A stretch of 64,000 nucleotides of DNA from Panopea generosa (Eukaryota; Mollusca; Bivalvia; Adapedonta; Hiatellidae). The notes under the pieces were generated by a model. The model searched no databases. It saw nothing but the letters and a program-made list of their open reading frames with translations, and was not told the DNA's origin. Location: the NCBI GenBank assembly GCA_029582155.1, contig CM055895.1, positions 49,101,417-49,165,416 on the forward strand, written 5' to 3'. Shown piece after piece: positions 16,601 through 50,000 of the stretch. Position numbers and translations under genes: made by a program. Each line of letters begins with the position of its first letter. Within the stretch, counting starts at the first letter, position 1.

Positions 16601-17120
16601 AAGTTACTCATAGCCACACTGGGAAGGTTAACCAGTAGTCCTGTACACTCATCGCCGCAAGTTACTCATAGCCACCCTGGGAATGTTAACCAGTAGTCCT
16701 GTACACTCATCGCCGCAAGTTACTCATAGCCACCCTGGGAAGGTTAACCAGTAGTCATGTACACTCATCGCCGCAAGTTACTCATAACCACCCTAGGAAG
16801 GTTAACCAGTATTCCTGTTTCTCCGCAAGTAACTCATAACCACCCTGGGAAGGTTAACCAGTAGTCCTGTACACTCATCGCCGCAAGTTACTCATAACCA
16901 CCCTGGGAAGGTTAACCAGTAGTCCTGTACACTCATCGCCGCAAGTTACTCATAACCACCCTGGGAAGGTTAACCAGTAGTCCTGTACAAATCACAAATT
17001 ATCGGTGAGAGACCAATAAAAATGAGACGCAATGTTATATATAAATCATCACAGAAATTGTGACCAGACGAGAATTCGAACTCACAGCCCCTAGATTGAT
17101 AGTCGTACACACCGCAGCTT
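7614..17120 (-). repeat. SINE (family B) with its core expanded into ~160 x 58-bp satellite
   Basis: The left edge (7614-7690, TTGTTTGAATATTTAGCG) matches the 3' tail of reverse-orientation family-B SINEs such as 44766-45058. The right edge (about 16990-17120, including GATTGATAGTC) matches the tRNA-like head of the same family. Between them a 58-bp unit (GGTTAACCAGTAGTCCTG, then TACACTCATCGCCGCAAG, then TTACTCATAGCCACCCTGGGAA) repeats about 160 times. Most copies differ by a few substitutions. The unit's reverse complement aligns with the SINE core at 27300-27370, for example GTTACTTGCGGAGATG and CTACTGGTTAA. There are no spacers and no open frame. Confidence 0.9.
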
Positions 17121-19907: not shown

Positions 19908-20048
19908 ATGGCCTCGGGTATGCTGCTGAAGACTGGCTTTTTGTTTGTTGTTTCTGTATTTATCTCTACCGTTTCAACATTATCGACTGATTACAATGTT
20001 GGAATAGGAATCGCTGACATCACCGGCCCGGCGGCGGAAGTAAATTTG
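19908..20048 (+). CDS. ASAH2: Ceramidase exon 1: start codon and signal peptide
   Basis: Residues 1-47. MASGMLLKTGFLFVVSVFIS is a hydrophobic signal peptide, followed by the conserved N-terminal core motif YNVGIGIADITGPAAEVNL. The ATG at 19908 is chosen because it opens the signal peptide; a second Met at residue 5 is possible. It ends in phase 0 before GTATGG. Confidence 0.93.
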
Positions 20049-23000: not shown

Positions 23001-26000
23001 TGCTTACAAGTAAGTGGAAGTGCCTGTGGGTATGATGTTTACAACTGATTCAATGCTTACACATGAATGGAATCTTACAAATGGGAGGGAGCTTAGAAGT
23101 GAGTGGAGGCTTACAAAAGGATATGACACTTACAAATGGATGAAGCTTACAAGTGGGTGGGAGCTTATAAGTGAATGAAGCTTACAAGTGGATGAGGGCT
23201 TACAAGTGGGTGGGAGCTCACAAGTGGTTGGGAGATTACAAGTGGTTGAAGCTTTACGTGATGGAAGTTTATAAGTGAGTGGAAGCTAACAAGTGTGTGG
23301 AAGCTCAAAATTGACTGAAACCTTACATGTTGGAATGAAGCTTACAAGTGTGCGGAAGCTTACAAGTGATTGGAAGCTTACAAGTGTGTGGAAGCCAACA
23401 AGTAGGTATGAGCTTACAAAGGGATTGAAGCTTGCAAGTGATTAGAAGCTTGTACGTGGATTGAGGCTTACAGGTGGGTGCAAGCTTACAAAGAAATTAA
23501 TCTAACAAATGAATGGAAGGTAGCAAGTGATTTGAATCTTACAAGTGAGTGAAACTGCTCTGTGTGGAGCGTGTTGTCCAGTGGTAGAGCACCGAACCTA
23601 TGATCAGAGGGTTGTTGCATGGATCCTCCGTCACAGCTATGTGTGGTGTCCTTGAGCAAGACACCTTTTCCGCATGTGCTTAGTACTTATACTAGCTTAA
23701 CTCAGGAATACTTTGATCGTGATTTATCTAAGTTGTAAGAACTTGTTTCGCAATCAAAGTGAAATAAATAAGTGGTTGAAAGCTTACATGTGAATGAAAA
23801 CTTACAAGTGGATGGTAACTTACAAGTGAGTGGATGTTTACAGGTGGGTGGAAGCCTACTAGTGGGTGGAATCTTACAAGTAGGTGAAAGCTTACAAATG
23901 GGTGATAAGCTTACAAGTGGATGGAAGCTTACAAGTTGGTGGAAGCTAACAAGTGGATGGAAGATTACAAGTTGGTGGAAGCTTACAAGTGAATGGAAGC
24001 TTACAAGTGGATGGAAGCTTACAAGTGGGTGGAAGCTTACAGGTGGGTGCATGCCAGGAAGCTTACAAATGGTTGAAAACTTACATGTGAATGGAAACTA
24101 AGTGAGAGCGAAATACAAGTAAGGGGATGCTTGCAATGGGTGGAAGCTTACAAGTGGTTGCTAAATAAAAATGACCCAGCTAAGACAGATTTGGTTGTAT
24201 ATTTCAGATAGTTAAACAATTGCAGAAGAAATATGGCAATTTATATACAGAGAGGAATGTATGTATAAGTGGCACCCACACCCACTCTGGTCCTGCAGGG
24301 TTCCACCAGTACATCCTGTATGATATAACCTCTCTTGGATTTGTGAAAGAGACCTTTGATTCTCTTGTTGATGGAATTGTCAAGGTAAGTGCAGTGCCTT
24401 ATTGGCAGTTATTTATACTGTGATATTATAAGGAGTTTATTTATTTAAAAAACTATATATATATATACGATTATGAAGGATTTTGTAAATTGATCTTAAA
24501 AAAATGTTTGTTTGCCGTGCTCCTACCTACCCATTTAAATTGCAGCTACCAGTACCCAATCTTTTTTTATATCTTTTCATTGATTATTTTCCCTATGATT
24601 TTTTTGTTTAAAATGACAGTAAAAACTCAATATCTGGTTAAAAAATAGATAGATTGGCCACTCTTAACAAAAGTCTGTTTGCTGTGCTCAAACCCAGTAA
24701 TTTTCATGTTTGTAGGTAGCTTATTATTTATTTTGGCCAGTTTTTTAAATTGCATACTTTAGTAATTTTAATAAAAAATGGACAGAATGCATGAATTTTT
24801 TTTTCAATGCTTTGAAAGTCAATAAAAAAAGTTATGGTAGCTGCAATATAGCAGCACAGCAAATAATGTTTTTAAGGATGGCTCTACCTACCTACCCACA
24901 TGAAAAATACTGGGTCTGAGTACAGCAAACAAACATTTTTTAAGGATGCCCTTATTGTAATGAGAACCAACAAACTCAATATTAATGCACACAGTGTAAA
25001 ATAAAATGAACAATAACTTCTCCAGAGTGTTGACATTGGAGCTGTTAGGCTGTTGGCATATTTCTGGTTATCTCCAAAAATTTAATTTATTTATTTTACT
25101 TTGTGAAACAAGTTTTTACAATTTATACAAATCACGCTCAAAGTCTTCATGGGTAGTACTAAAAATATGCAGAAAAAGTAACTTGCCCAAGGACATCATT
25201 ACACATGGGGGAAAGATGAGTCCCAGGACTCGCCGAACCACTAGACCATGCACTCCACACTATCTTGTGCATATACCTGGATGAAGTTGTAAGTACATGT
25301 AGCAATCAAAGCACAATACAGTCAAACCTGTGAAAGCAGTCACTTGCATTAAACAGCCACTTGTCTCGAGCAGACACATTTGCTATTCCCCTTTTCTATG
25401 CTTTCAGAGCAAATTAATCTGTTTTAAACAACAACCTGTCTGAAAAGACCACCTTTTCTCTTTCCCTTGACTGGCTGCTTAAGACAGGTTTGACTGTACT
25501 TGCATTTAAATGGTTCAGAATAATTTTTCACATGATAAAACATTTCTATATTAAAAAAAAAAATAAAAAATTAGCACTAACTTGTTGTCATATAGAGTGT
25601 GGAGAGGGCCCATGATAATATCCAGCCTGCCAACATGTATGTGAACACAGGGGAGCTGCTTGAGAGCAACATCAATAGAAGTCCCTCCGCCTACCTCTTC
25701 AATCCTCCAGAGGAAAGAGCAAAGTAAGCATTTATATAGAACTCTGTTTGTTTTGTAAGAAATTGTAAAAAAAAAACTTGGTAGAAATGACACAAAGTTA
25801 GTGTAATAACCAACGGATGTTGAATGGAGAGTATCAGAATGGATTATGCGTGGGTATCTGATGATGTACTCAAGCATAATTGTGTTTCATTTCAATTCTG
25901 TATGGTGCGAATAAAATGTATCAAACTTAATGCTTTTTATATAATTACAGATACAAGTATGACACAGACAAGAACATGACTCTGCTGAAGATAGTGGATG

Positions 26001-29000
26001 CAAATGACACACCTATAGGCATGATCAGGTATAGTATGTTAGTTGTGATTACAGCAAGTGTCAGAGGTTAGCAGTAGTGCAGTGGATAGATTGTCGGCTG
26101 CTCATGATAGAGGTTGAAGGTTTGATCCCCAGTCTAACCTGATGGCCTCTTGAAAAACAACACTAAGCAGGAAGCGGGCTCAAATGCATTTCGTATAAGC
26201 TCTTAGTTTTTTTGCAATCAAGCTAAAATAAATCCGTATATAAATTAGGTACGAGGATTTGAGATTATAAAACTTTGTTTCATGCTGAACTTAAGAGGTA
26301 ATGCTTAACTCAAAGACTCTTATCACAAAATGAATATAAATACCTTTTGTACTACAAATGTTTGACCTTTAATGTGTGTATTTATATGAATGTGGGAATT
26401 CTGTTCGAGTATGAATTTGAGTGAGCATAAAACTGTTTTATAACCTCAGCATAAATGGGTTGTATACTCTATTGCTAATATCACCTTTCTAAAACTGACA
26501 TATACATAGTAGAGGTTGGTGAAAAAAGTATCTTGGTACACTGCGATTTTGTAGTGATTACTGCGTTAAGTTGTAACATAAATACTAAATAAAACTTATC
26601 TAATAATGCAACTCCCAGTTACGAAAATTGCCAAAAAACTTGTACCATGGTATGTATTGGTGCAGTTCAAAAATGGTATACTGGTTTTACCATGCAGCTC
26701 TTATACACATGCACTGCTGGAGTGACATCAGAATATTACTGTAAAATACTAGACTACTGTAGGACTACAAGAGATTCATTGATCCGCATGCCTCAGTCCA
26801 AACAAACATCTTAACAATGTCATGCTAGATAGTTTTGATTCTGGGTTGAAAACATGTTTTGGTGCATTTTCCATTTTTATAAGAAAATGAAAAGTTTACG
26901 ATATTAATGCTTGTTTTGTTACCAATTTCTAAAAGTGTTAAAAAAAAGAAGAAATATAATGAACCTCATTATTATAATGTAAATTTAATGACCTCATTCT
27001 GCATGTGATAGAAAAATCTTCATTGCAACTGATGTGGATTTTATGAATGCTCAGGTATTCATGCAAAACGTTACCAAATCTGGTTATCAAATATCCTTAC
27101 TTCCATTCACATCTCAGAAATACAAATTAAAATTCTTTCTTTGCAGCCGGGCCCGATTAGCTCAGTGGGTTACGCGTCTGACTATCAATCCAGGGGTAGT
27201 GAGTTTGAATCCCCCACCCGGCAACAGTCTCCATGATGATTGATATATGACATTGTGTCTCATTATCATTTGTCTCTCACCACTGATTCAATTGGGAAAG
27301 TTATCAGTTACTTGCGGAGATGGGGTGTGCTCGACTACTGGTTAATCCCAGGAAACAGTGGTTAGGTTAACTGATCATCTGTTAGCCCTCGATGGCATAA
27401 AAATGATGCTAAATATTCAATCAATCAATCAATCTTTCTTTGCATGGTGGAATTCTCAAAACAAGACCATTCCCATCAAGTTGTGTTTAAAATTGTTGAA
27501 GTATTTATGATTGCAAAATTTGTATACTGCAACTAAACAATCAAGGAAAGAACAATGAATTTTACTTCATACTGCATTATTTTAAATTCAAAATAATTTT
27601 GCATGATCAAAACAGTATAAAACATTTAAGGTTATATCTGCTTACATTTATGTAAAATAAATCGGTTGCCTGTGTGATTTGAATGGTTAATTTGCCAAAT
27701 TATTGATTCTTGGCATGCTATTTTATAAACATTTGGTAGAGTGATGCAAGTTTCCTATCCTCCTATATATAAGTCCTTGGAGAAATGAAACGTCGTTTTT
27801 ATGCATTGCTTTGAAAGCTCAGATGAGTTTTTGAAGTTGCTATATTGGACCAGAGCGAACAATGATGGCTCTCAAATGATGAACTGAACAAGTGCTGATT
27901 TTTTGTCTCATAAATACTATATTGCCTTTAGTATTCATTAAGTATGTAGAACAAACCCACTCTCTGGATTGGGTCTATTAAATAGCAATGTTGGGAAAGC
28001 CACATTCGAGCACATTGATTGGTCAGTTGCTTCAACTGAAAGTTTGAATTACGTCACAGTTAGTAAGCGTTCAACTGCTATGAATTGTGAGATAAACATG
28101 GAATTCCCTCCTTTTTCATTGCGGGTTAGTTGACCTGATTTGGCAGATATCAGGTTCTGGGACAGACTAGTTTTCATTGAATCATGGCTAGATCAGAATT
28201 TTTACAAAAATGACAATAAAAGCTGGGACAAGGTATCGAAGCAGCCAATATTGTTCTAAAATTGATTTGCTGCATGTATTTTAATCCTTTATTTGAGTTT
28301 TCAGCATGTGCTTTTTGTTAGTTATCTGTTTTTAACTATTTATTCATATAAGTAATATGTAGTGGTTTTGAAACATAAACTAATATATATATGTTTAGGT
28401 GATATTTCATTTGTCCTGACTGTTATGTTTTTGTTGACTTTCTATCAATAAAGTTCACTGACATACCGGTATATTACTTGCACCAGCCTTTTAAATTGCA
28501 GCCATACTGTTTTAAATTTTAAATGCTACCTGCTATTGAAAAATAATGTATTGAAAGAAACAGGGTTGTGTTTGTTCAAAAACTGCCCAGCATATTTTAC
28601 TAGATCAGTCACATGATAACATTTGGCAAACTAAACAGTAAAAATATTTAGAACTATGAACCTAAGCATAAATGAAGACTTCTAACATTTTACATTAACA
28701 TAATATAAGCATAACTGTACCTATGAGTGTATAGTGACATTAAAAGAGAGCTTTGCTCCTTAACAAGCTCCTATTTAGTGAGCAACACCGGTATATGCAC
28801 ACCTCAAGCTTGCATTATTATGTTTTGTTATATTTGGATGTGGCCACCGTATAGCCTGTTATATTTTGGTTGGCGTTTTACTCTAATTTTACATAATCTA
28901 TTTATAGTTCATCAAGTGCAGTTTTTTTATTACTCAGAACAATTATTTACCTGGAATTTTTTATTTCTACGATTTCACATCACTTTCTTTTGCTGACAAG

Positions 29001-32000
29001 TTATTGGTCAGCTGAACCAATCTGGTCATGTGACAACTGTCATTCAAATGAACAAATCGATGTGGTATCGTTGAAATTCCACTTTAATAAAACAAATGTT
29101 GTGAGTGATAGAAAACTCTGCTAGGTATGCATCAAGAACATGGAAACAAGCGTTTTAGTGATACATGTATATTGTAGTTGGTTTGCAGTTCACTGCACTA
29201 GCATGAATAATACCAATCAACTGATTAGCAGTGACAACAAGGGTCTCGCCTCCATCTTGTTTGAAGCTGACATGAACGGTGATGGATTTTTCCCAGGAAA
29301 GGTATGGGTAGCTCCCCCACCCCCACTGATTGTGCCCATGTTGCCTGCCTCCACCATGTTGACATTATGATGTTGGTAGACAGGACCTGTACAGTGTTTG
29401 TAACATTTAATGGGACACCAGGGGTCATATTCACCAACCATTTTTGAAAATATTCTAAGATTTAAGCTTAAAAATCCAAATGTCAGCCTTAGATGTCTAG
29501 TTAACCATGACCAGATAGAATAATCGTGAGAGTTTACTTGACTAATATTTGGTGTCTCTACATGCTTGCAAATTTTGGTCTCAAAAATGGTCTCTAAGTG
29601 GGTTTTTCAAAATTCTTTCTTGATTTAAGAATAGTTGGTGAATACCACTGCTTACAGTGTTCAGGGCTTGAAACTTCTTATAAAAACTACTTGCCCTCCC
29701 CATGACTACATTTTTTATTGAGTGCTTACAGTCAAAGAAATATTAAGGTCAGTTTCTGAAACATTAAATATGGCCAGCAGACTAGTGGAATTTTCCAGTC
29801 CTGAATGTTGATGTCGACTTTTACACATTTTCTCACAAAATAAAAACAAATCAATCTCTACATCTATAAAGGTATAACCATATGAAAATATTCATCCCCC
29901 AAGTTTTCATACGATCTAAAATTTCATGGTTAAGAAATTATTTACAGGTTATAAAACGCACGCTGTCGTGCTAGTTTTGAAAAATATGAGTAAATATCAA
30001 AGATTACTTTTTTCTATCATACCAATAAAAACTGATGAAAATAAAATAAATTTTACACTTTCTGTCAGAGATGATTTAACATTTTTGAAATGGGGTGTCT
30101 TTCAACAATTTACAGTAGTTAAGTCCCTTTTCAAAAATAAGCTGAATTTAAGGCTAAGGTATTTTGATTTCATATTTGCATCATGCAGCTGGTACTGAAT
30201 TTATTGCTTGCAATATGCAATTGGCTTGTTTTTAGACATAAATAGCAATTTTTTGATCTTTTGATTATTAAAGAAATTGAAATCCATATATAAAAATGGG
30301 AAAGTCATGAAGTTGATTTGTAGCAGCAATTATTGAGAGGAACCATACATTACCTTGTAAAATTGATTACACAAGGATATGATTTTTACAATTGCTTACA
30401 CAAGGATATGTTTTTTATAATTGCTTACACAAGAATATGTTTTTATAAAATTATGCTGGCCAACACTTTGTGGTCAAATTCTTTTCATAGTTTGAATATT
30501 CATTTTGAAAATTAATAATTAGATAAAAAAAGTTTTATTTTATTTAGGCATTGGTTGTTAATTGTAGAGAATAATAAATTAACTGTATAATATTGTGCAA
30601 GGCTCCTGCAGTATTTGAGCATGACAACAGTAACAATAATTGCAATATTTATCTGCTTTTAACATGCATGGAATAGCACAACTGTTTAATATATGTATGC
30701 ACTATATTACTGTGAATAATAAAAATACACAATTTCCTTCAGGGCAAGTTTGTAGCTGCATTCGCTCAGGCCAACTTGGGTGATGTGTCCCCAAACACAA
30801 AAGGTCCACACTGTATGGATACGGGGCTACCATGTGACACCAACACAAGCACATGCAATGGAAGGGTAAACCACATCTTCTTTCCTTTGCAAGATTGACT
30901 GAATCCTATAAGATATTCTGTCATTTCTCTTCTTCTGATCTGATTCAGGTTCTCCCGCATGGGAGTGACCTATGTCTTCTGGTAGTTATCACTTTATATT
31001 AGTTGTGTGTATAAGTTATTTGTGTACATAAGTTATTTGAGTGTTTATAAGTTAGTTTTGTATACATGTATGTTAGTTAGTGTATATAAGTTATTTGTGT
31101 ATACAAGTTATTTATGTGTATATAAGTTATTTGTGTATATTAGTTATTTATGTGTATATAAATTAGTTTTGTATACATGTATGTTAGTTGTGTATATAAG
31201 TTGGTTGTGTATATAAGTTAGTTGTGTCTATGTAACTTAGATGTGTGTATCAGTTAGTTGTGTATATAAGTAAGTTGTGTGCATATCAGTTGGTTGTGTA
31301 TATAAGTTAGTTGTGTATATAAGTTAGTTGTGTGTATATAAGTTAATTGCATGTATAAGCTAGTTGTGCATATAAGTAAGTTGTGTATTTACGTTAATTA
31401 TGTGTATATAAACTAGTTGTATATATAAGTTAGTTGTGTATATAAATTAGTTGTGTGTATATAAGTTAGTTGTGCATATAAGTTAGTTGTGTATTTAAAA
31501 AGAAAGAAAGGAAGGTTATGGTGAAGTGGATAATGTGCCAGAGGTCCCAGGTTTGATCCCAGACTTGACTTGATGGAAGGATTGTTGTGATAGAATATAT
31601 TTAAATTGTACATCATTCATGTATATGTTTAATCATAAATATTCTGTGTTTCCTGGGTCTTCCATGGCTGACAGGTCTAAGGTACTTTCGTCTAGTGACC
31701 ACTTACTGCTGAGGTAGTGGATTCTGCCATTGGTTTAGAGGTTCCAAAAACTTTGAGAATGTATGCTGACGAACGGTGTTTATATTTATTGATTTTCATT
31801 ATAAGACCAGTTTTCCAGTAATTTCTAGAATGAAAATGCGTAGGTACATTGGCTATATGTTTGGAGTATATTGCTGTGGTTAGGGAAATTAAGTACTCAG
31901 TCCTCAGTCCTGAGTAGACATGTAGTAATAAAAATAATATCTTTATTTATAGACGGTAACACATTACGACATAATACAACATTGAAAACAAGGTACACAT

Positions 32001-35000
32001 CTTATTTTCAATGTGGCTTTCTACAACAACATTAAAAATATCTCCGCCCAACAGTCTCCTTGATGATTGATATATGATATTTGCTTCATTGTCATTTGTC
32101 TTGTGGAGATGGATTTGCTCCAGTGTTGGCTAACCTTCAGGAACTTAGGTTAGTTCATCTGTTAGATCTTGATGGCTTAATAATGATATTGCATTATAAT
32201 AATAACAGATTAAAATGTATAAATAACACCATGCTTATGACAGACACTCAATTAGTAATGCATGCATCTTAAATGCTTAAGTAGCATTTATACATTATTA
32301 TATTATACTATTTTATACAAATAACAACAAATATCATTTGTCTGGTGATTGGTGAAGGTATTTTTATACTGACATTTAAATGAGTGGATATGCTGTTGAT
32401 TGATAGGACCAACCTATATTTTGATCAATTCTGTTATTATTGTTTTTCTAGAATGAGATGTGTGTATCCCCAGGACCGGGAAAGGACATGTTCGAGAGTA
32501 CACAGATCATTGGTACCAATCAGTATAAAAAAGCCATGGTAAGGACTGAGATTTTCAGGCTTTGCAATTTTTAGATTTTCATGAAAATGTAAAGCTGGTA
32601 CATGTATCTTAAGGTCTTGTCATACAAGTTATAATAGCTTTCACCTGAATCCTGGTCACTTGTTACTTAATGTGTATATTGAATGTATGACTGCCATGTA
32701 TATTGTGGATAAAATATTGTGTAAACCAACGGCCTTGCCTATATATAAATTGCATTCATTGAGTTTTATTCGGCAAATTGGTTTATTTGTCAGAACTTGT
32801 AGTTCTTGCATTACCAGAAAAGCTTATATTTATACTTCACAATGGGATGTGACTAGTGTGTGGTAAGAAAAAATTATTGGTAGGTCTTTTTTAATACTAG
32901 TGTATCATATACCTGGTAAATATGACATCTGTTGAAAAACAGAAAAATATATCATTTTCAGCCATTTTCAAAAGCATAGAATGATGACAAAATTAATATG
33001 GTCTCGGGTTTTGTAAAATTCTGGAAATTGCTAGGAAAAATGTTAGCATATCTGACTATTGATCAAGAGGTTGTGAGTTTGAATCCCCTTCCTGCCACAA
33101 TCTTCGTGATGGTTGACATATGATATTGCATCTTATTATCATTCACTTCCATCGCTGATTAAAAGTGGGGAAATTATCAGTTATTTGCTGAGACAGGGTG
33201 TGCTCGAGTACTGGTTTACCTTCCAGGATCCCAGGAAACAGTGGTTAGGTTAACTGATCATCTGTTTGCCCTGAATGGCATAAAAATGATGCTAAATATT
33301 CAATCAATCAATCAATCAAGCTACAAACAACTTGAGTGTGGGAGATGAAGCTTCGAAACAGTAAGTGAGCGTTCCATCAGAAGCATCATGTGACTTTTTG
33401 TAAGCATGAGATAGGCTACTGAAATGTGTCTTACATTGCATTAATGAAATGGCTGCATGATTTATTTGTTCATATGAAATTCTTATACTTACAATGGTGA
33501 GTGTACTGGTCAATAGGTTACTGACTTCTGTGGCCAGAGTGCATAGTGCAGGGTCCAAATAGTCAGTCAAGGCAACTTGAATTTGCTCATCTGATAAAAC
33601 ACTTTTTTTTTTTGTTATATTCTTGTAAAGGTCCTCCATGGTGGACTTGTCTAAGGCGATGTCTCAAGATCGCTTACCTCTCACCACTAAGGTTATAGGC
33701 TTGAGTCCCGCTCGCTCCAAAAACATTTTGTGCCAGTTTGCAAATTACTTGCGGGAGGATGGTGGTTTTACTCAGATTCATTCTGATGTTATCCGCCTCC
33801 AATAAAAAACTAGATATGTCATAAATATAACCTGAAATGTGTTGCAAATGGCTTATAATCCCATTCGGAAAAAATTCATGTTAAATGAAGTTAAAGGCCA
33901 ATGATATTGACTATTTACATATACAATGTATAATGAAAGTTTTCCTTTTTTATTTATTTCAGTTCATGGTTTTCATTTCAGGATCTGTTCAATTCTGCCA
34001 AAACTCGTGTGAGCGGACCAGTAGATTTCAGACATACATACACAGATATGACCAAACAGACTGTGGGAGAGGTATTTATATTATAAGTACACTTTTTCTG
34101 TTGAACTTAGAGTTGTAGTGGGTCTTATTTCATTTGTTTTGCATCTTCATTTAACTTTGTTGTGAGCTTGTGAACTTTATGTTATGTTAAGCACCCCCTT
34201 TTAAGTTCACCAGGTGAGCTATTCTGGTTATACTGTGTCCATCATCTGTCCATTAAATTAGGTAGTGTCAACTGAGGTTATAACGGTCACATTTTTTTAA
34301 TGGCTTTGATGTCATTAAAATAATTATGGGATCATTTAATACCTCATAATTATACAGTTGCAAATTTCAAAATTACAGTATTCTTAACCCTATTTGAACA
34401 TACTTAAATGGTTTATTCTTAAAATTTGCTTGCTGATAGTAACTAGTAATCAACTTGAACTTACCATTTAGCCAAATGACGCATATCAGCAATTGATATG
34501 CTATAAAAGTAGTTCCTCTTAAAACTAAAACTAAGGTCAAACTGTTCAAAATATTCTATACATCTTTATATTTTATAAATAAATAGTAAATTCAAATTGA
34601 TAAACAGATTTGGTTGTCTGTTTTAACTACTGCTGACGCTGTTTATGGCTGCATTCGCCATTGTAAACAAAGAACATAATAATTCATAGAACATGAAAAT
34701 GTGGTGATTTTACAGATGATAGATGCAGTTTTTGATACCCACAAATCTAAGAGCACCAAAAATGAAATCACAGGCAGTTTCTCAAAGGTGTTAGAATATA
34801 TGTTCATATGTCTGTTATCTCTTTAGAATTAATACTTGACAATTGACAAAATAAACATTATAACTTTTTTTTATGATAAATGTGTAAATATTATAACAAT
34901 AACCAATTATCACATAGTTTAAGGTGCAGGAATGTAATAAACTAATGACATAATTTTTTAGCTCGCCGGGACAAATGTCCAAGGAGAGCTTTTGCCATGA

Positions 35001-38000
35001 ACTTGGCGTTGGCGGTGCCTCTGTTGACACCCAGGTTAAACTGTTGCATTTTAAGTTAAAGATATCTATGCAACCACTCATTGGATATGAATGAAACTTC
35101 GCATGTGTGTTCAGCATCATCAATGGAACACACAGAGACAAGAACCATAACTGTGGCTTGCATTTTGGCAGAGTTATGGCCCTTTTTGGACTTAGTTACC
35201 CAGGCTAAACTTATGCATTTAGTTGCGTTTAAGTTTAAGATATCTATGCAACCACTTATTGGATATGAATGAACATTGCATGTGTGTTCACCATCATCGA
35301 GTTATGGCCCTTTTTGGACTTAGACATCCAGGTTAAACTTTTGCTTTTAGTTGAGTTTAAGTTTAAGATATCTATGCAACCACTCATTGGATATGGATGA
35401 AACTTCACATATGTGTTCACCATCATCGATGGAACATCAAAGACAAGAACCATAACTCAGGGTTGCATGTTGGCAAAGATATGGCCCTTTTTAGACTTAT
35501 TTTTTGTCTGTAGACACCCAGGTTAAACTTTTGCATTTAGTTGCGTTTAAGTTTTGGTGTTTGCCTCCAATCTCAATCTTTGCATGGGTGGTGAGTTTTA
35601 TCCCACCGGCGAGCTTTGTTGTCATCTGACAACTCTTGTTATATCAACAAGATATATCACTTCACAAAATATCACTTCTGACTCAGCGCTCGTTGTTTTC
35701 CGTATAACTCAGCTCTAGTATGTAAATTGCCGAAGTACTTTCTGAATATATAATAATGACTTACAGAATCAAATATGCTAAATTTTTTCTCGTTCCTTAT
35801 AGACCTGATCTGTTAAATGTAAACTTTTTCTGAGTTATGTGATAAAACGAATCTTACATTCATGCTAATTTATTATTTAATTTATTAAACTTGTTGGGAA
35901 AAATGATATAATAATCGGAAGTGCCTCACATTTTTAAATTTTTTGCAACTTGTTTAATATATTCAATAATAAATACACATTCATGTAAGATCCTCTTTTT
36001 ATGATATTACAGGGCAAGCATACATGTAAACCTGCCATGGGTTACAGCTTTGCTGCAGGCACAACAGATGGACCGGGGGCATTTGACTTTGAGCAAGGTA
36101 TGCATTTGATACAAACATTTGACCTGACTGTTTTTGATATAAAAAACAACAGTTTCTGAAGAACAAACAATCTAATTGTGTTTATTTGTGAACACATACA
36201 GTACAGTGTTTTACAGAAAGTATGATTTTGTCTATTCTTACATTTTCTATTTGTCCAATACTTTATGTATTAAAGTAATGAATCAACATGGCTCAAAAGA
36301 GAATGCACAATAGCATTACACATGGCCGATTCTTTCTTACTACATTCTCCAGAAATCACCTATTAAAAAACGGACACACTTTTTTTTTAACAAATCATTA
36401 GTGTTGCTAAGATAGATAATGAATAAAGAAGTGATTTCACTATAAACAAGCATGCGGAAGGTCGTGGGTTTGTTCCCTCACCATGACATACCATAGACTT
36501 GAAAAATGGTATTAGAAGCTTCCTTGCTTGGCACTCAGTATTTTGAGGATAGTTCTAGGTCTGGTCAGCCCCGGTGTCAGTATAATGTGACCAGGTGGGG
36601 TATCATATCATATGTCTGTGGCATGATACTCCAGTGTGGCAGCGCTCAAAATAGTGTCTCAGGTAGACACCTTTGCGACTGAAAATTTGTTGAAAGTGCC
36701 GCTTAACATGATACGATTACAACAACCATAAACAATGTGATAACATAATGCACACTATCTTTTTTTACATTATTCAAGGTTCAACAAAGAGCAATCCATT
36801 CTGGAATTTAGTCAGTGGTCTTCTGCATGAGCCATCTGTACAGCAGATTGCCTGCCACAGTCCCAAACCAATCTTGCTTGATACTGGCAGTGTAAGAAAT
36901 GTCTTCTGCAATATTTCCATGCACTGCTGCTGATGTAATGTTTGCCCTAATGCCCTAAACCAATCCCACTTGATACTTGCTGTGTAGACTATATCATATT
37001 ATCATACATTTGGTATATTGCATTTGGGATATTACATTATATATGCGTTACATATGTTAGTTGGGCCTGGTTAGTTCAGTCTGTAGTGAGTCTAATGAAT
37101 CCATGGGTTATGAAGACGAATCCTCGCCAAGCCACAGCCTCCTTGATGATTGATATATGACATTTGTTTCATTGTCATTCGTCTTGTGGAGATGTATTTG
37201 CTTCAGTATTGGTTAACCTTCCAGGATCTTAGGTTAGTTCATCTGTTAGACCTTGATGGCTTCATAATGATTCTAGATATTCTATCAACCAATGAAAGTG
37301 TTAGATTTACACTTTCAATGCACAAATCTCATGTACCTCTTTACTGTTAAAATGACCCTTACTGTTCCCACCAGGGGTCGCCACATAGCATTGTACAGGA
37401 CCCCTTTTCTACTTAATTTTTTTGTAAAATATTGGTTTCAAATCAATAGTGGGTGCATTCCTGTCGACAGCCACATTTCTAGTTTCAGTATGTGTATTAC
37501 CAATAACAACAATGGAATTTGAGCCTAATGTTAATTAAATGCTGTATTAGAGTCAAATCAATTACAAGGGTTGTACGTTCAAACCCACGTTCGGCCACAA
37601 TCTCCGTGATGTTTCATATACAACATTATGTCTCATTATCATTACACTCTTCGTCTGTTAGCCATCGATGGCATAAAAATGACACTAAATATTCAATCAA
37701 TCAATAAGTCTTTCACCACTGATTCAAGTGAAAAAGTTATCAGTTACTTGCAAAGATGGGGTGTGCTCGAGTACTGATTAACCTTCAAGGATCCCAGGAA
37801 ACAGTGCTAAGGTTAACTGATTGTCTATTAGCCCTGTATGTCATAAAAATGATGCTCAATATTCAGTCAATCAATCAATGTATTTGGGTCTATCATGGCC
37901 GAGTGGTCTAATGTGTTGTCTCATTGTCTCTTACCTTGCACCACTGATGTGGATTTGAGTCCATCTCAGCACCGCTTACCTCTCAATAAGTCTTTCACCA

Positions 38001-41000
38001 CTGATTCAAGTGAAAAAGTTATCAGTTACTTGCAAAGATGGGGTGTGCTCGAGTACTGATTAACCTTCAAGGATCCCAGGAAACAGTGCTAAGGTTAACT
38101 GATTGTCTATTAGCCCTGTATGTCATAAAAATGATGCTCAATATTCAGTCAATCAATCAATGTATTAGGGTCTATCATGGCCGAGTGGTCTAATGTGTTG
38201 TCTCATTGTCTCTTACCTTGCACCACTGATGTGGATTTGAGTCCATCTCAGCACCGCTTACCTCTCACTACTGATGTGGATTTGAGTCTATCCCAGTGTC
38301 ACTTACCTCTCATTACTGATGTGGATTTGAATCCACCTCAATACCATCTCTCACTCCTGATGTGGATTTGAATCTATCTCAGTATCACCCCCCACTACTG
38401 ATGCAGATTTGAGTCTATCCCAGTGTCACTTACGTCTCACTACCGATGTGGATTTAAATCCACCTCAATACCACCTCTCATTCCTGATGTGGATTTGAAT
38501 CCACCTCAATACCACCTCTCAATCCTGATGTGGAATTGAATCTATTTCAGTATCACCTCCCACTACTGATGTGGATTTGAGTCTATCCCAGTGTCACTTA
38601 CCTCTCACTACCGATGTGGATTTGAATCTATCTCAGTATTACCCCCCACTACTGATGCAGATTTGAGTCTATCCCAGTGTCACTTACGTCTTACTACCGA
38701 TGTGGATTTAAATCCACCTCAATACCACCTCTCACTACTGATGTGGATTTGAATCCACCTCAATACCACCTCTCACTCCTGATGTGGATTTGAATCTATC
38801 TCAGTATCACCTCCCACTACTGATGTGGATTGAAGTCTTTCTCAATATATCACTTCTCACTCCTGATGTGGATCTGAGTCCATCTCAGCATCATTTACCT
38901 CTAACTGACCCATCCTAACCTGTTGTTTCCTGTTGTACTGTAGGTAACACCTCCTCCTCCCCTTTCTGGAACTTTGTTAGTGGATTGATCCACAAACCAT
39001 CACCGCAACAGAAGGATTGCCATAAACCTAAACCAATCTTGTTGGACACAGGGGAGGTAATACATACATCCTTATTCTAGTAACTGCTTAATATATTTTC
39101 ATTAAAAGTATTAAACAGTAACTTTGAAAGTATTGAACTGTTATATAGGAACGTGAAGTATTATTTTAACTCATCTTTTTCATATTGGCAGGGTATATTT
39201 GCTACTAAATTTCTAAATGCTGATTCAGGCCTAAATTAAAATATTGTTTGTTTGTCGTTTACCTACCCATCATTTTCATCTTGGGTAGGTAAATTATTGT
39301 CATTTTGTCAGACATAACATCTAATTATTACCTTTTCCTTGCACATTATCTCTTTAAAACAGCATAACCAGTAACTCAGCTTACAATTCCATCAAACCAT
39401 TGGAAGATACGTGTATGTGTAAAGATATTAATGCATACATGGACATTTTTTTTTTGTTGGAGCCTTATTTTAAGGATATCAGAAACCATTTATGTTGCAA
39501 TGTAGGAAATAAAAGTGTTGCCAGGGAAATGAGCAAAAAAGTTTAATTTTTGTCATGGGATTTGGACTCAAGCGACAATTCACAGATATAACAGAAACAT
39601 TGAATATTATTCATCATTTTAACAACAACAAATAATAAAATTATTTCTTTGAAAGTTGCATAAAATTTATTAGAGTAAGGCAATATTGTCAGGTAGGTAG
39701 GTAAGTATGGACAGACAAACATTATTTTTTTTTCGACCTCATATATAAAATTCATCAAATAGTTATTAAATATTAACAGTAATACATGACAAGGATTGTT
39801 GTTCTCAATTTCTAATTAAAGTTATTGTAAGTAAAAATTTTATATTATTTTGCCATCATTTTGTATATTACAGATACATTATCCTTATGTTTGGGAACCA
39901 TCCATACTAGATATTTGTATATTACAGATAGAATATCCTTATGTTTGGGAACCATCCATACTAGATATTTGTATATTACAGATATATTATCTTTCTTTAT
40001 GTTTGGGAACCATTCATACCAGATATTTATACAGATAAGTTTTATTTATGCTTGGATACCATTCATAGTTGATATTTGTATATTACAGATAGATTATCCT
40101 TATGTTCGGGAACCATTCATACTAGATATTTGTAAATTACAGATAGATTATCTTTATGTTTGGGAACAATTCATACTATTTATTTGTATATTACAGATAG
40201 ATTATCTTTATGTTTGGGAACCATCCATACTAGATATTTGTATATTACAGATAGATTATCCTTATGCTTGGGAACTATCCATTGTTGATATTTGTATATT
40301 ACAGATAGATTATCCTTATGTTCGGGAACCATTCATACTAGATATTTGTATATTACAGATAGATTATCTTTATGTTTGGGAACAATTCATACTATTTATT
40401 TGTATATTACAGATAGATTATCCTTATGTTTGGGAACCATTCATACTATTTATATGTATATTACAGATAGATTATCCTTATGTTTGGGTACCATCCATAC
40501 TAGATATTTGTATATTACAGATAGCTTATCTTTGTTTGGGAACCATCCATTGTTAATATTTGTATATTACAGATAGATTATCCTTATGTTTGGGAACCAT
40601 TCATACTATTTATATGTATATTACAGATAGATTATCCTTATGTTTGGGTACCATCCATACTAGATATTTGTATATTACAGATAGCTTATCTTTGTTTGGG
40701 AACTATCCATACTAGATATTTGTATATTACAGATAAATTATCTTTATGTTTGGGAACCATCCATACTAGATATTTGTATATTACAGATATATATCTTTAT
40801 GTTTGGGAACTATATATACTAGATATTTGTATATTACAGATAGATTATCCTTATGCCTGGGAACCATCCATACTAGATATTTGTATATTACAGATAGATT
40901 ATCCTTATGTTTGGGAATCATTCATACTATTTATATGTATATTACAGATAGATTATCCTTATGTTTGGGAACCATCCATACTAGATATTTGTATATTACA

Positions 41001-44000
41001 GATAGCTTATCTTTGTTTGGGAACTATCTATACTAGATATTTGTATTTTACAGATAAATTATCTTTATGTTTGGGAACCATCCATACTAGATATTTGTAT
41101 ATTGCAGATAGATTATCCTTATGTTTGGGAACCATTCATACTATTTATATGTATATTACAGATAGGTTATCCTTATGTTTGGGAACCATCCATACTAGAT
41201 ATTTGTATATTACAGATAGCTTATCTTTGTTTGGGAACTATCCATACTAGATATTTGTATATTACAGATAAATTATCTTTATGTTTTGGAACCATCTATA
41301 GTTGATATTTGTATATTACAGATATATTATCCTTATGTCTGGGAACCATCCATAGTTGATATTTGTATATTACAGATAGATTATCCTTATGCCTGGGAAC
41401 CATCCATAGTTGATATTTGTATATTACAGATAGATTATCCTTATGCCTGGGAACCATCCATAGTTGATATTTGTATATTACAGATAGATTATCCTTATGC
41501 CTGGGAACCATCCATAGTTGATACACAGATTCTCAAGATTGGTCAGGTTGTCATGATAGCAGTACCAGCAGAATTTACGTAAGCTGATCAAAGTGCAACA
41601 ATTTTTAGATCTTGAATTATAAGATTGAATGAGTTTCTTTTAAAATTTTATATTCTTTTAAAAACAATCTACATGATGTCTCACAAGGCAAGAAATGACT
41701 TTCTGATTTTTAATTGTTTAAAATTGCCTATTTCTGCAAGCAAAATTACACAGAAGATCTCACATGAGTGCTTATTCATTATTGAAATTATTTTCATTTT
41801 CAACAGGTACCTTTATTCTCTCATTACATTTATGCCATCCATAAAAAATAAATGTTTTGCTCTGCTTCTACCTACTCTCTCAAAATTGCAGCTACCCAAA
41901 CGTTTTTTTTATTGACTTTCAAAGTGTTTTTTTTCTCATGATTTTTGTCCATTTTTCTTTTTAAAATGACTATGCAAAATCCAAATTTGGCAAAAAAAAA
42001 AATTACCTACCTACCCATTTTAGAAAATACTGGGTTAGAGCAAAGCAAACAAATATTTTTTTATGGATAGCCTTACATGTAAAAATAAGGAAAAAGTACA
42101 AATTTTATAGTACAATGTAGGTAGTGTTAATTGTGTTGGCTGGTCCTCTCCTATCACATGCGTTGTAACCCAGTCTGGTCAGCACATGAATTATGTTAAT
42201 ATTAACTGACAGAGTGGAAAACAGTGCAGGAAGTGTTCAGATTGCACTGTTTTCAAAATCCTTCTGTGATTGGTGCAGGAAATCGCGTATCTATGGAGTA
42301 AAGGGTTAACTAAGCACACACTGATCTGGATAATACACTGGCAGAAGACATGGTGAGGTAGCCTCCAATTTTATCATTATAATTTTGAATTAAAGTGTAT
42401 TAAATCAGGGAAGAAGTGTGAAATACATGTTGAAAAAAGTATATTATGCGAGACTATTCCGAGCATTATATCATTTCTCCCAACAAGTTTAATAAATTCA
42501 ATAATAAAAGAGCATGAATTTAAGATTTGTTTCATCACATAACTCAGGAAAATTTTACATTTACCATTTATTTAACAGATCATATAAGTTTCCTTGAGGC
42601 AATTCATATGAGGTAATGTCTCAAAATAATGTCATTCAGCCATGACAAATCACCATTATTTATATAATATTCGAGCAAGATGTAAAATACTTTGGCAGTT
42701 TACGTATGAGAAATGGAAAATACTGGGTGATGAATTGGATGTGCTATTATAATTACACTAGGTTAATATAAAAAATATGGCCTGGGATTATTACACGCCT
42801 GCACCGTTACTTATGTGATAATACTTGTTGTCATATGTATGGCAATGCTTCTAACATAAAGGAACTACATGTTTATAATAATACACTTTTATATGTATTT
42901 TTATTAATATTTTACATGTTCAAAACATCAACTTGTAGCACAAATAATGAATAAAAAGCAAAAGGGTCGGGCTACAAGTTTTAGCAACATTAGTTACATT
43001 CTTCCCCAATGCGTCAAAATGCACATACAAATTAAAGTGACAATATTTTTGCAATACAAACAAACACATATACTTTTGAACAAGCATATCACTGTGTTTC
43101 ACACATATAAAAACATGCATGCGTGTATATAAATTAAAGTGACAATATTTTTGAAATCATTTACATGGAATTCACTTTACTGGGTTACATTTGTACAACT
43201 GAGTTCAATTCTGTTACAGCACAATGTCTGGTAGGAGAATGCGAGAAGCTGTAGAACAGGTAAAATGCATTAAAATATAGGATAAATTACATGTTTGTTT
43301 GTTTGAATATTAAGCACCATTTTAAGCCATTAAAAGCTAACAAATGATCAGTTTACCTAACCACCCTTTCCTGGGATTCTGGAAGGTTTATCCTTACTCA
43401 AGTACCCCCATCTTCACAAGTAACTGATAACTTTCTCACTTTGAATCAGCGGTGAGAGACAAACGACAATGAGATGCAAATGTCCTTTTTCAGCTGTCGA
43501 GGAGGCTGTGGCCGGTTGGGGATTTGAACTCATGTCCCCTGGATTGATAGTCAGACACACTACTGACTGAGCTAGCTTGGCCTGACCTAAATTAGATGTA
43601 AAACAGGACTGTTGAATAATGCAGTATCTTGATATTATAAGATATTTTGATATCAAGATTAGAACAATCAATAAAAATATTAGATATAATAAGATGAGTG
43701 TATATACGTCACTGTTAAAATTTCATGTAAGAGAATTGAAAATAAAGAAAATAATAACAAAATTAAATGCTTTTTTCACAAATGATAAGCAACACCTAAC
43801 ATAAGTACATAATTATTTAAAAGATAAATTTTATCTGATATTCATTTTAAATTTAAAAAAAAATCACTTCAAATTTTTATTCGATTCTTGTACTGTATGT
43901 ATTGGTATTACATATTGGTCCAGCAGTATATAAAATGTTCTATGAATGAGAAACTGCTGGTCTGCTGGTCTGGTTTTTTGTTTAATTGCGTTTAACGCCA

Positions 44001-47000
44001 CTTTCATCACATTTCCAGTTATATATCATGGCATATCCAATTTAATTGGTAGAGGAATACTTCAGAATTAAAACCAACATCTTTCCACAAGTAATTGGCA
44101 AACTTTTTTCACAAAAAGATTTTGGCGCGAGTGGGACTTGAACTTACAACCTTAGCAGTGAGAGGCAAGTGATCTTGAGATGGCGTGTTAGACTGTTCAA
44201 TCACGGCCCGAGGACCAATATGAATCTACAATGTTTACATTGATTTGAAAATTATAAAGGCAGAAAACAAATATGGTATAAAATTGAAAATAAATTTTAC
44301 TTGATAATTTCAGAGCTTTGTGGAGGGAGGAGCTAGTGAACGACCAATCACAGTGATTGCTGGCCTGTCCAATGACTATTCTGATTATGTGACAACATTT
44401 GAAGAATACCAGGTGTGTTTAGAAAGTAGATATTGATATATAATGTATTGTACAGTTCAGAATGACTGTCAACTACATTTCTTCTGTCATGATACATACA
44501 GGCACATTATGATGAAGTCAGACAGACTGACCACTCTTGACAAACCAAGAATTTATATAAAACGATAAGAAACTTGCTCCTCCTGACTGAATGTTGATAA
44601 AATAGCATGCAAAGGATTAATTATTCGGCAAATTGATCATTAAGAATTCACAGGCAATGACTTTCTTATCCATAATACAACCTTAGATATTTTATAATGT
44701 TAAGTTAAATTTCAGTTCATCTACTCAGATTATATCTTGATATTTTTTCATTGTACATGTTAGATAGATTGATTTATTGATTGATTGAATATTTAGCGTC
44801 ATTTTTATGCCATCGAGGGCTAACAGATGATCAGTTAATCTAACCACTATTTCCTGGGATTAACCAGTACTCGAGCACACCCCATCTCTGCTATTTACTG
44901 ATAACTTTTCCACTTGAATCAGTGATGAGAGACGGATGATAATGAGACACAATGTCGTATATCAATCATCACGAAGTCTGTTGCCGGGCAGGGGATTTGA
45001 ACTCACGACCCCTGGATTGATAGTCAGATGCATAACCGACAGAGCTAATTGGGCCCAGCTTGTTAGATAGAAGGATTACTTAAATAATTATTCAATATTT
45101 GAAAGCCTGGTGAATATCAAAAACGTTAATAAGAATTCTTCTTTTGTTTATATTTTTTTGCTTCTTTGGCAGACAATATAAATTAGATTTTATATACAGT
45201 GAAAGAAAAAAGAAAGTATACATACCTATAAACGTCGACAGGTCAAGAAACAATAAATGTATTGCATATAAATTTTGTATATTTATATTTCATCATATTG
45301 TTGAATCAAAAAAAAAAACATTTAATTCATTTCAAAGCAAGACAAAAAGAAAAAATCAGTTCATTTTCCATCACATGAATAAACTTAGCCAATAATGTAA
45401 TAATTTTAAAAACCAAAATGTATACTTTCTTTTCTTTTCAGTGTAGTTTCATTGTTATATAAACAAACACAGTCAAACCTGTTTAAGCTGTAACATCTTT
45501 GGAATAGCCACTATTCTTAAGCAGCCACATTTGCTATTTCCCACTTGTTTATTTTTCCCAGCAAATTCACCTACATGTATTAAGCAATAATCTGTCTTAA
45601 AAGGCTGCTTTTGTTGGCTCAATTTGCAGGCTCCTTAAGACAGGTTTGACTGCATTTCAATACTTATATACACGTATCAATAAAATAGCAAAATTTCATT
45701 GTTTTATTCTATAGCAACAACGGTATGAAGGAGGGTCTACCATCTTTGGACCTCACACTCTGGAAGCTTACATACAAGTATATAAGAATATGTCAAATGC
45801 TATGGCAAAGGTAATTTGTCAGTTTTCATCATGTATTTCATTAAAATCAAGATTTGTTCAAAATAGATGAACCAAAACAGTATCAAAATTATTTTTCTTA
45901 AGTGGCTAAAAGTCAGATCCAAGCTTCTTTGCCTGTAAACTACTAACATTTTTTTTCGTCTCTGTTTTGTTTTTCTCCCTGAAACCACGGACCAAATAAC
46001 TCCACATGGTTACCATTGTTAAAAATGCTTTCTGATTGGTTGAATGTTTTAACAACATCTCTGATACCACTGAACTAAAAGTTGCTGGTAATGTTCTCTG
46101 ATTGGTCCCCTACAATATTTTTTTTTTGTCCAGAAAGCAACATTGTTAGCAGATTTTTATTTGTTTGGTAAGTTTGTAATTTAAAAAATGTTCATTCCAC
46201 AACCTGTTAAATCAAACTTTGCAGGAATATTCCATAGATAAATGTACACAAAGAACATATTGTTTGTTGGTCAGTCAGTCAATCTGTCAACCACTTTTCA
46301 AACTACTTAAACAATTTTCTGACGATTAACTTGAACATGTGTGTGAAGCCTTTCTTTAGACTCTGAATTAATTCCATATAGAGTTATTGCTCTTGCACTA
46401 AGTAAAATTGCTGTTTTTACCATTTTGCAATTCTTGTGGAGAGAATTTCTTTCACAGTTTTTAAACTGTGTCAGTTAAACTGGGTGAGTTAATACATGTA
46501 CAGTCCCTAGTACAGTTCTAGTTTCACTTTCCAGCAATACAATAGAATATTGCCACATAAATACGTTACTTTGATTTGTTAACCAATTATGCCATCCTTT
46601 CAAATAATCTGTCACATTTAGATATCAGCTCATCATACAGTTAATGTTTTTCTTTTCTATGGCTTAACGTACATATCTTTTTCTGCATTGTTTTTCATTT
46701 ATCTGTATTCTAGTAGTGTTTTATGTACTTCCTGGGCAATCATGAAACATCGGGTATTTCCGTATCCTCTGTATAATACACCTCGTGTATAGCTCTAGAA
46801 TACACCAACGCTATTAGCCTGTGTAACAAGTCTGTTCATTCGCGTGAAAGTAACAAATTATGTATCTGTCATTAAGTTAAATATATGGCATTATTATAGC
46901 GATTTTTTTATTTATACACTCGACATGGGTCATGTTTATAGGGAAATTCAAAATATCAGTCTTGCTTAACCAACGTTTATATTTTCAACGTACATGTATA

Positions 47001-50000
47001 TAAGGTGGCATAAGGGAGCCACCATTTTATCATGTGACAGAAAGAAGTTCCAAAATGGCGCCTTGTTATGTCAGAGGTCTATTGTGTTGCATAAAGGCCG
47101 AGGTGATCAAATTGCTTCCTGGGATGATTCATTGACTTTGGCTCAAATCTTAAACATCAAAATTAAATGCAGCTTATTCATTTTCCTGTTGAACTTTATG
47201 ACAATACTAGTATGTAGAAAATATACAGTTGAAATGTTCTTTATATCAAATATCTTACTCTTTACAAGTTATGATCAAAATTAGATAAATCTACTACTTG
47301 AACAAATTTTAGCTCATATTTTCATGAAATCCAAACAGCTGCCATCACTAAAAATGGATTAATTCATCTTTCAGGGAAGTCCGATTGCCCTAGGTCCAAA
47401 TCCTCCAAATCTGATTTCGGAACAGTTGAGTTTCCTACCTCCTGTAGTATTTGATACAACTCCTTTTGGTAAAAGCTTTGGTGATGTTATAAATCAACCA
47501 GCAAAGTCATACACTATGGTAAGTAACTTTCTTTTGTAATATTAATATTGGATACTAATTTTATTTGTTTGAATGTTCAAAAGATGTACACATGTACCAT
47601 GTGGGTGGAGAAATTGAATCCCAAAGGTGTATACACAATGTTTGCATGTTAGTTCTTATATAAACGTTTAACAAAAATAGTTCATTTTTTGTATTTATAC
47701 AGGCATATTGTCGATACCCACATATCACATTTTCCAATTATTCTCAAAAACATGTATTTATAGCATAGTCTACCTTGCATATGATAGTCATGGATATCTT
47801 CTCTACACATGATAGCTATGGATTGTCCTCTTTACATATGATAGCCATGGATCATCTTCTCTACACATGATAGCTATGGATTGTCTCTTCACATATGATA
47901 GCCATGGATTGTCTTCTTTACATATGATAGCCATGGATTGTCTTCTTTACATATGATAGCCATGGATTGTCCTCTTTACATATGATAGCCATGGATTGTC
48001 CTCTTTACATATGCTAGCCATGGATTGTCTTCTTTACATGTGATAGCCATGGATTGTTCTCTTTACATATGATAGCCATGGATCGTCTTCTTTACATATG
48101 ATAGCCATGGATTGTCTTCTTAACATATGATAGTTATCAATTGTCTTATTTACATATGATTATCATGAACTGTCTTCTTTACATATGATAGCCATGGATT
48201 GTCTTCTTTACATATTATAGCTATGGATTGTCTTATTTACATATGATAGCCATGGATTGTCTTCTTTACATATGGTAGCCATCAATTGTCTTATTTACAT
48301 ATGATAGCCATGGATTGTCATCTTTACATATGATAGCATGGATTGTCTTCTTTACATATGATAGCCATTGATTGTCTTCTTTACATATGATAGCCATTGA
48401 TTGTCTTATTTACATATGATAGCCATTGATTGTCTTCTTTACATATGGTAACCATTGATTGTCTTATTTACATATGATAGCCATTGATTGTCTTCTTTAC
48501 ATATGGTAGCCATGGATTGTCTTCTTTACATATGATAGCCATGGATTGTCTTCTTTACATATGATAGCATGGATTGTCCTCTTTACATATGATATTCATT
48601 AATTGTCTTCTTTGCATATGGCAGTTATGGATTGCCTATTTTATGTATTATCTTCTTTCCATATGATACGTAGCTATGGATTGTCTTCTTTACATAATTT
48701 TTATGAGTCTTGGACCTTATATCTTTACACAATTTATGATAGCAATGGTTGCCTTCTTAATATATGATAGTGATGTGGTGTTTCTATTACATAACTATTC
48801 CTCCTTACACATGGTAGTCGTCATAACCAGTATAACTTTGTTACAGAACCAAAGAGTAGAAGTGAAGTTTGTTGGTGCTAATCCAAGGAATGACAGAAAG
48901 GTTAGTGTACTGGCATTATGACTTAATTAGTCCACCTTATGGGGTGGTGTAGTGGATCAGGTGTTGGCTATTTATACTGGAGGCTGTGGGTTTGACCCAC
49001 CAATTGACAAAGTGGCCTCTTACCAGGCCGCAACACTCATTACTGGTTCTACGAAAGATATAGAGTCCAAATTGATTTATAAAAGCTCTGACATGACTTT
49101 GTATTCTAGCTAATATTTATAAGTATTAATCAAATTTACATAAATTGTTAAGATTTAGTCACCAATAATAAGCTGGGTCAGTCTAGCTCTGTCGTTAACA
49201 GGTTTGACTGTCAATCTAGGGGCTGTGAGTTTGAATTCCTGGCTGGCCGCAGTCTCTGTGATATTTGGTTATGAAATATATTCTATGGACATGAGTCTTC
49301 CACCCCTGAATATGTGGGGAAGTAGTCAGTGACTTGCAGAGATAAACTGTTTCATGCATATGTATAGGTTAACCACATATGGAATTCCAGAAACCATAAT
49401 TAAGTGTACAGACCACTGTTAAATAACTAAAATGCTGTTGAACAAAAGGCAAAAAACATGGAAGTAAACAAATCAACAGGCATTTAACTATATTATAATT
49501 TTATAATTTACTTGTACTGGAAAAAGTATTTGTATTTGCAATTTTTTATACACAAAATGAATATATAACCTAGCTTTTTATGTTACTTAAACCTTAATTA
49601 TGCTAATCGCATTTCATTTAATTCTATTAAAGAAATGAATGGATGTTTATAAAGCTTGATTTTGTTTTATTTCCGTTTCCCTACATTAAACTTATTTCAT
49701 TTGAATCATAGAAATGGTGAAACCTTACTATATCCATTGTGATATTTTTACACTTATTAAGACAGAAATGGAATATAGTACATGTAAATTTCACCTTGAC
49801 CCTACAATATTTCTAGAACATGTACATACACTGGTTTGTAGACATATTGCTTCATTTATAATCAATATTATACAAAATATATTTTAGGCTGAGTCCTCGT
49901 TTCTGGAAATTTTATTCAAAGAACCAAGCGGAAACTGGACTGTTCAGTTTACTGATGCAAACTGGGAAACAAGGTTGGTTCTATGTTAACTTTGATATTT

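Follow-up and report, generated by a model that had tools for sequence, protein, structure and literature searches.

In the 64,000-nucleotide stretch of the Panopea generosa assembly GCA_029582155.1 analysed here (contig CM055895.1, positions 49,101,417 to 49,165,416 of the forward strand; hereafter the window), an intron-exon boundary has been turned into a minisatellite, so that about 31 copies of a 3' splice site stand in a row, the last of them at the 12th coding exon of a gene that probably encodes neutral ceramidase, a ceramide-digesting enzyme. We consider this array to be probably a tolerated one, seeded by chance across the exon edge, with the last acceptor (41484, in window coordinates) as the main one, chosen by its nearness to the exon's own donor, and with a normal enzyme as the product. 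The locus poses a natural 31-way competition among 3' splice sites, in which either the first site after the branch point or the site that pairs with the nearest donor to make an exon of ordinary length might win. If the last acceptor is used, an intron has grown by about 1.6 kb from exon sequence while the coding frame was kept.

Tandem Repeats Finder recorded 31.0 copies with a period of 54 (88% matches, score 2466), and CAG/ATA, the slash marking the splice point, is present at 31 of 31 unit acceptors, which bears out the central claim of a preliminary description of this locus, namely a boundary multiplied into some 31 acceptors. Each unit is made up of 14 bases from the intron's 3' end followed by 40 from the start of the exon, and not of 15 and 39 as first described; the exon is identical to the unit as far as GATA, and on the intron flank matching begins only at TTTGTATATTACAG. 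No microhomology was found in the sequence at the joint between exon end and intron tail, where the flanking bases differ. The units had been called near-identical and 54 bp long, which holds for the likeness of the acceptors but not for uniformity: among the 30 steps from acceptor to acceptor, 24 measure 54 bases but four have only 52 and two have 53, and acceptor 40035 belongs to a degenerate unit. Neighbouring units have a mean identity of 0.874, a period of 214 (four units) scores as high as the period of 54, and mean unit identity peaks slightly at lags 4 (0.893) and 10 (0.892), with 0.857-0.878 for the rest of the lags listed. The 40 initial bases of the exon recur without a mismatch in the two units closest to it, which equal the exon copy over all 54 bases, and the unit at 41322 shows two differences; the exon-proximal end of the array therefore looks the youngest or the latest homogenised.

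The gene around the array was modelled from open frames joined at AG/GT ends, which gave 19 coding exons, with one of two alternative exons 11a and 11b, and a protein of 744 amino acids. This protein matches the profile PF04734 (Ceramidase_alk) over positions 1-509 of 509 (E 3.6e-231) and PF17048 (Ceramidse_alk_C) over positions 2-169 of 169 (E 1.4e-53); both Ceramidase_alk domains, N- and C-terminal, are thus complete, as in neutral ceramidases (ASAH2 family), and the neutral ceramidase structure PDB 4wgk is matched as well (E 3.9e-211). Among the best 120 of 5560 matches, the top-scoring named relatives of normal length are from bivalves (Ruditapes and Mercenaria 68%, Dreissena and Mya 66% identity), and two longer proteins, one from a beetle and one from a fish, outscore them at 47-49% identity; within the same 120, no relative exceeds 68% identity to the modelled protein and none was recognised as the species' own. 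The exon behind the array, bounded by TTACAG and GTAAGC, had been numbered 14 and is the 12th coding exon in our model, or the 13th in genomic order when both 11a and 11b are counted.

The acceptors differ sharply in coding outcome. When translated as far as donor 41579 with the phase carried over from exon 11 (30 of 31 directly, 40035 by inference), only five, at 41268, 41322, 41376, 41430 and 41484, keep an open frame, and 25 of the 30 translated run into a stop. Acceptor 40035, which lies 54 bases before 40089 and in frame with it, would meet the same stop. From 41484 back to 41268 the exons so formed measure 95, 149, 203, 257 and 311 bases, and relative to 41484 the other four add 18 (41430), 36 (41376), 54 (41322) and 72 residues (41268), as had been predicted.

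Acceptor strength cannot distinguish the copies, since their scores are nearly equal in all but one. A weight matrix built from the 18 other acceptors of the same gene (leave-one-out median 6.2) gave 12.1 for 41484, 9.2-13.7 for 30 of the 31 units and 1.3 for the degenerate 40035; the score of 41484 is reached by just one of 1395 other intronic AGs. Exon definition, on the other hand, would favour 41484 and 41430, because exons of 95 and 149 bases fall within the range of the gene's internal exons (40 to 177 bases). Further, TTGAT, a branch-like motif of the form YTRAY, stands 17 bases before each of the final four acceptors (41322, 41376, 41430, 41484), and a YTRAY at 12-60 bases upstream is found in three of the remaining 27 (40089, 40305, 40573). 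The motif derives from the exon allele AGTTGAT, in place of which most distal units have ACTAGAT or ACTATTT. The nucleotides GGG occur at most 45 bases downstream of the acceptor in 29 of 31 units.

Taken together, the locus probably arose when 54 bp across the 3' splice site of this exon in the ceramidase gene were duplicated in tandem; unequal exchange or slippage would then have brought the array to about 31 units. The last acceptor, 41484, would most likely be the one mainly used and 41430 the likeliest minor site, the choice being governed by proximity to donor 41579 through exon definition and perhaps assisted by the TTGAT upstream of the last four acceptors. The array would then be spliced out as the 3' end of a lengthened intron, leaving a normal enzyme. 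Because a choice made near the donor would render the array nearly neutral, it could persist, and its distal units would be free to decay.

Features of the window discussed in the text, with coordinates counted from its first nucleotide
Feature	Position	Strand	Basis
Neutral ceramidase gene (probable), coding span from ATG to stop	19908..52441	+	Gene model; Pfam; PDB match
Exon 11a, alternative copy, 113 bp, same phases as 11b, ...ILLDTGS	36779..36891	+	Gene model, comparison
Exon 11b, 113 bp, ends in phase 0, ...ILLDTGE	38944..39056	+	Gene model
54-bp minisatellite, about 31 units	39860..41523	+	Tandem Repeats Finder; unit list
Upstream units with acceptors leading to a stop, including degenerate 40035, 52- and 53-base units and 214-bp higher-order repeats	39874..41267	+	Translation, unit list, Tandem Repeats Finder (40035 inferred)
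Four upstream units open in frame, acceptors 41268, 41322, 41376 and 41430	41268..41483	+	Translation from acceptors to donor
True exon, 95 bp, 12th coding exon; last copy of the unit's exon part; encodes IDYPYAWEPSIVDTQILKIGQVVMIAVPAEF(T)	41484..41578	+	Gene model, AG/GT ends; homologues
5' splice site GTAAGC of exon 12	41579..41584	+	Sequence; role in acceptor choice inferred

Several points weigh against this reading. Acceptor use is predicted from the sequence. If the spliceosome simply scanned from a branch point lying before the array, it would take the first acceptor, 39874, which leads to a stop, and if that site dominated, the ceramidase gene would be broken. The enrichment of the branch-like motif at the last acceptors (Fisher 0.001) ignores that neighbouring units are copies of each other, and at 17 bases TTGAT sits close to the AG. 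Moreover, such a motif is not required, since half of the gene's other acceptors (9 of 18) lack a YTRAY at 12-60 bases.

That an array should straddle an exon edge at all needs no special cause, because random placement of first units only gave 0.63 edge-straddling arrays on average and at least one with a probability of 0.49. Tandem arrays occupy about 23.7 kb (37%) of the window, according to a list merged by hand from Tandem Repeats Finder with short rows omitted and a 47-base overlap counted twice, and ten of them account for 20% of the coding span, not counting two short arrays that also lie in the gene. When these ten were placed at random at full length, 7 of the 38 internal exon edges were covered on average, against one observed (P for one or fewer 0.005). 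It seems that arrays are kept away from exon edges and that the boundary array is a tolerated survivor of a not improbable event. Two very long arrays also lie in the window, at 7696-16989 (58 bp x 160) and at 59224-64000 (43 bp x 111), the latter running to the window end.

Comparable arrangements are known from other genes. Tandem acceptors of the NAGNAG type, 3 bases apart, and other alternative 3' splice sites compete in a row and change the protein by whole residues; the clam acceptors likewise stand in series as competitors but are 52-54 bases apart and about 31 in number. The human CBS gene carries a variable number of tandem repeats (VNTR) at exon 13/intron 13, and work by Lievers in 2001 is said to associate its length with lower activity. 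This VNTR, c.1444_1467+7(16_21), has a 31-bp unit made of 24 bases of exon and the first 7 of the intron after it and is present in 16-21 copies, as given in a passage of PMC2630376. Its unit straddles an exon-intron boundary that is multiplied in tandem, as in the clam, but on the donor side and with 31 bp, no multiple of three, whereas the clam array is on the acceptor side, in frame with 54 bp, and has about 31 copies. In terms of exon-boundary VNTRs of the CBS type, the clam unit spans the exon-intron boundary of a coding gene and has a splice site in every copy (one of them poor, the 40035 site), but it is the 3' splice site that is multiplied and not the donor (5' splice site). G runs and hnRNP H control the splicing of a second CBS variant, 844ins68. 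There the intron 7/exon 8 junction is duplicated and the downstream copy strongly favoured, with normal mRNA, as stated in a passage of PMC2630376 that words the site as 'splice donor', while the reference cited in it is titled for 3' splice site selection. This insertion, too, is a duplicated intron-exon junction that multiplies a splice site before an exon, but it has two copies of 68 bp and is a human polymorphism, in contrast to about 31 copies of 54 bp in the clam. The clam array combines both CBS cases, with the acceptor side of 844ins68 and a copy number above that of the VNTR. Tandem genomic duplication of the AGGT type has been presented, in a section of PMC3443670, as giving rise to splice sites and to introns; as portrayed in that section it also adds splice sites within a gene by tandem duplication, but it gains an intron, whereas the clam case lengthens an existing one at its 3' end. 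Among the open-licence papers listed by our searches we found no earlier description of an acceptor-side boundary minisatellite of such size, which is weak evidence of absence.

It is unlikely that the array instead serves as a working generator of isoforms, in which several of the last acceptors would be used, the enzyme would carry 0, 18, 36, 54 or 72 additional residues, and copy number would vary among individuals. Such a role would suit the four upstream acceptors that are open in frame, score about equally and yield exons of 149-311 bases, three of them with TTGAT upstream. However, the units themselves lend no support to the functions put forward in the preliminary description, length isoforms or a buffering of splicing. 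The coding-constraint test used 23 of the 30 intervals, leaving aside the degenerate interval and another six that measure 52-53 bases, and had low power: 24 distinct substitutions in 23 units comprised 6 synonymous (5.4 expected), 18 missense and 0 nonsense changes (1.6 expected, P 0.2). No coding constraint was detected in these intact 54-base units, and at this power the pattern is as for an untranslated array. Selection keeping the last four units in frame was considered and found without evidence; runs of at least four in-frame units also occur far upstream, where stops follow anyway, and since eight consecutive 54-base units stand at 40089-40467, the last run is not special.

Selection maintaining the acceptors was not shown either. 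With 30 of the 31 units (the degenerate one dropped) and gaps left out, 4 distinct substitutions fell in the 14 intron bases versus 25 in the 40 exon bases, an equally quiet 14-base block was present in 6 of the 54 rotations of the unit, and variable columns numbered 4 of 14 versus 19 of 40 (Fisher 0.35). With gaps counted, the substitutions were 4 versus 33, and 4 of 54 rotations were as quiet. The nine-base core TTACAG/ATA ties as the least variable block, which leans towards conservation but is no proof of it. In RNA folding, the last units together with the exon were unremarkable, shuffled sequences being at least as stable in 81 of 100 cases (z 0.83).

Homologues point the same way as far as the ancestral exon is concerned. 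None of the 20 aligned homologues (20 of 120 listed, from other species) has an insertion at the junction, and none of 181 fetched homologues, from other species or unnamed sources and none known to be the clam's own, contains any of the five array peptides. Since the proteins compared come from such sources, they would reveal the ancestral form of the exon, not the clam's own mRNA. The best 120 of 838 matches to the form carrying 72 added residues plus the downstream exons were all ceramidases from other organisms or unnamed sources, at most 52% identical. The array had been placed next to the active site, which holds in sequence: Glu462, invariant in the alignment of 20 homologues and presumably the counterpart of a human zinc ligand, is the 30th residue of the exon. 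Pocket residues of human ceramidase are listed in part of PMC6952831. In structure the claim is less secure. In the model of the Ruditapes homologue (P0003; 32 sequences, mean predicted local distance difference test, pLDDT, 80.3) the junction (residues 429/430) falls after a lone bridge residue and before a coil leading into a strand at 440. A junction within a coil or at its edge, with a strand starting ten residues on, would suit added residues, but confidence is low at the junction itself (pLDDT below 50 at residues 424-427, average 54 over the block 421-430), and an insertion there is conceivable, no more.

We hold it to be quite improbable that the array forms a tunable bank of splice sites, in which the proximal units sharing TTGAT would be used in turn, changes in copy number within the population would alter the enzyme in 18-residue steps beside the presumed zinc-binding segment, and exon definition would shield the frame from the decayed distal units.

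There is little likelihood that the array disrupts the gene, with upstream acceptors competing and most transcripts bearing stops and being degraded, so that the allele would be hypomorphic or the gene decaying. Such damage might be expected where a stop follows from most acceptors (25 of the 30 translated, and presumably 40035 as well) and nearly all of them score like 41484. However, the remaining exons, with their AG/GT ends, can be put together into a single open frame and both Pfam profiles are matched almost end to end, which argues against a long-standing loss of the gene, although the damage could be recent. Splicing of CBS 844ins68 also stays normal despite its duplicated junction (PMC2630376, in the passage concerned). 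Least probable is an assembly artefact in copy number or in the entire array, since tandem arrays are often mis-sized in assemblies but these units differ from each other and show the 214-bp higher-order pattern, even if the copy number might still be off.

The exon preceding the array is itself duplicated. Exons 11a and 11b, about 2 kb apart, both run from phase 1 to 0 and share 68 of their 113 bases and 26 of their 37 residues; their codons differ in 27 places, in 16 of which the change is silent. The two look mutually exclusive, because joint inclusion would shift the frame (113 is not divisible by 3). Exon 11a ends in TGS, and most aligned relatives have TGE. The idea that the two are ancient alternatives was set aside, as the homologues are uninformative on age (of 181, 71 are nearer to 11a, 102 nearer to 11b and 8 tie). 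In the intron between 11a and 11b lies a 282-bp tandem duplication (37701-38267, 99% matches) that is probably recent, and a short stretch at 36951-36985, reading CPKPIPLDTC, looks like a third, degenerate copy of this exon's end.

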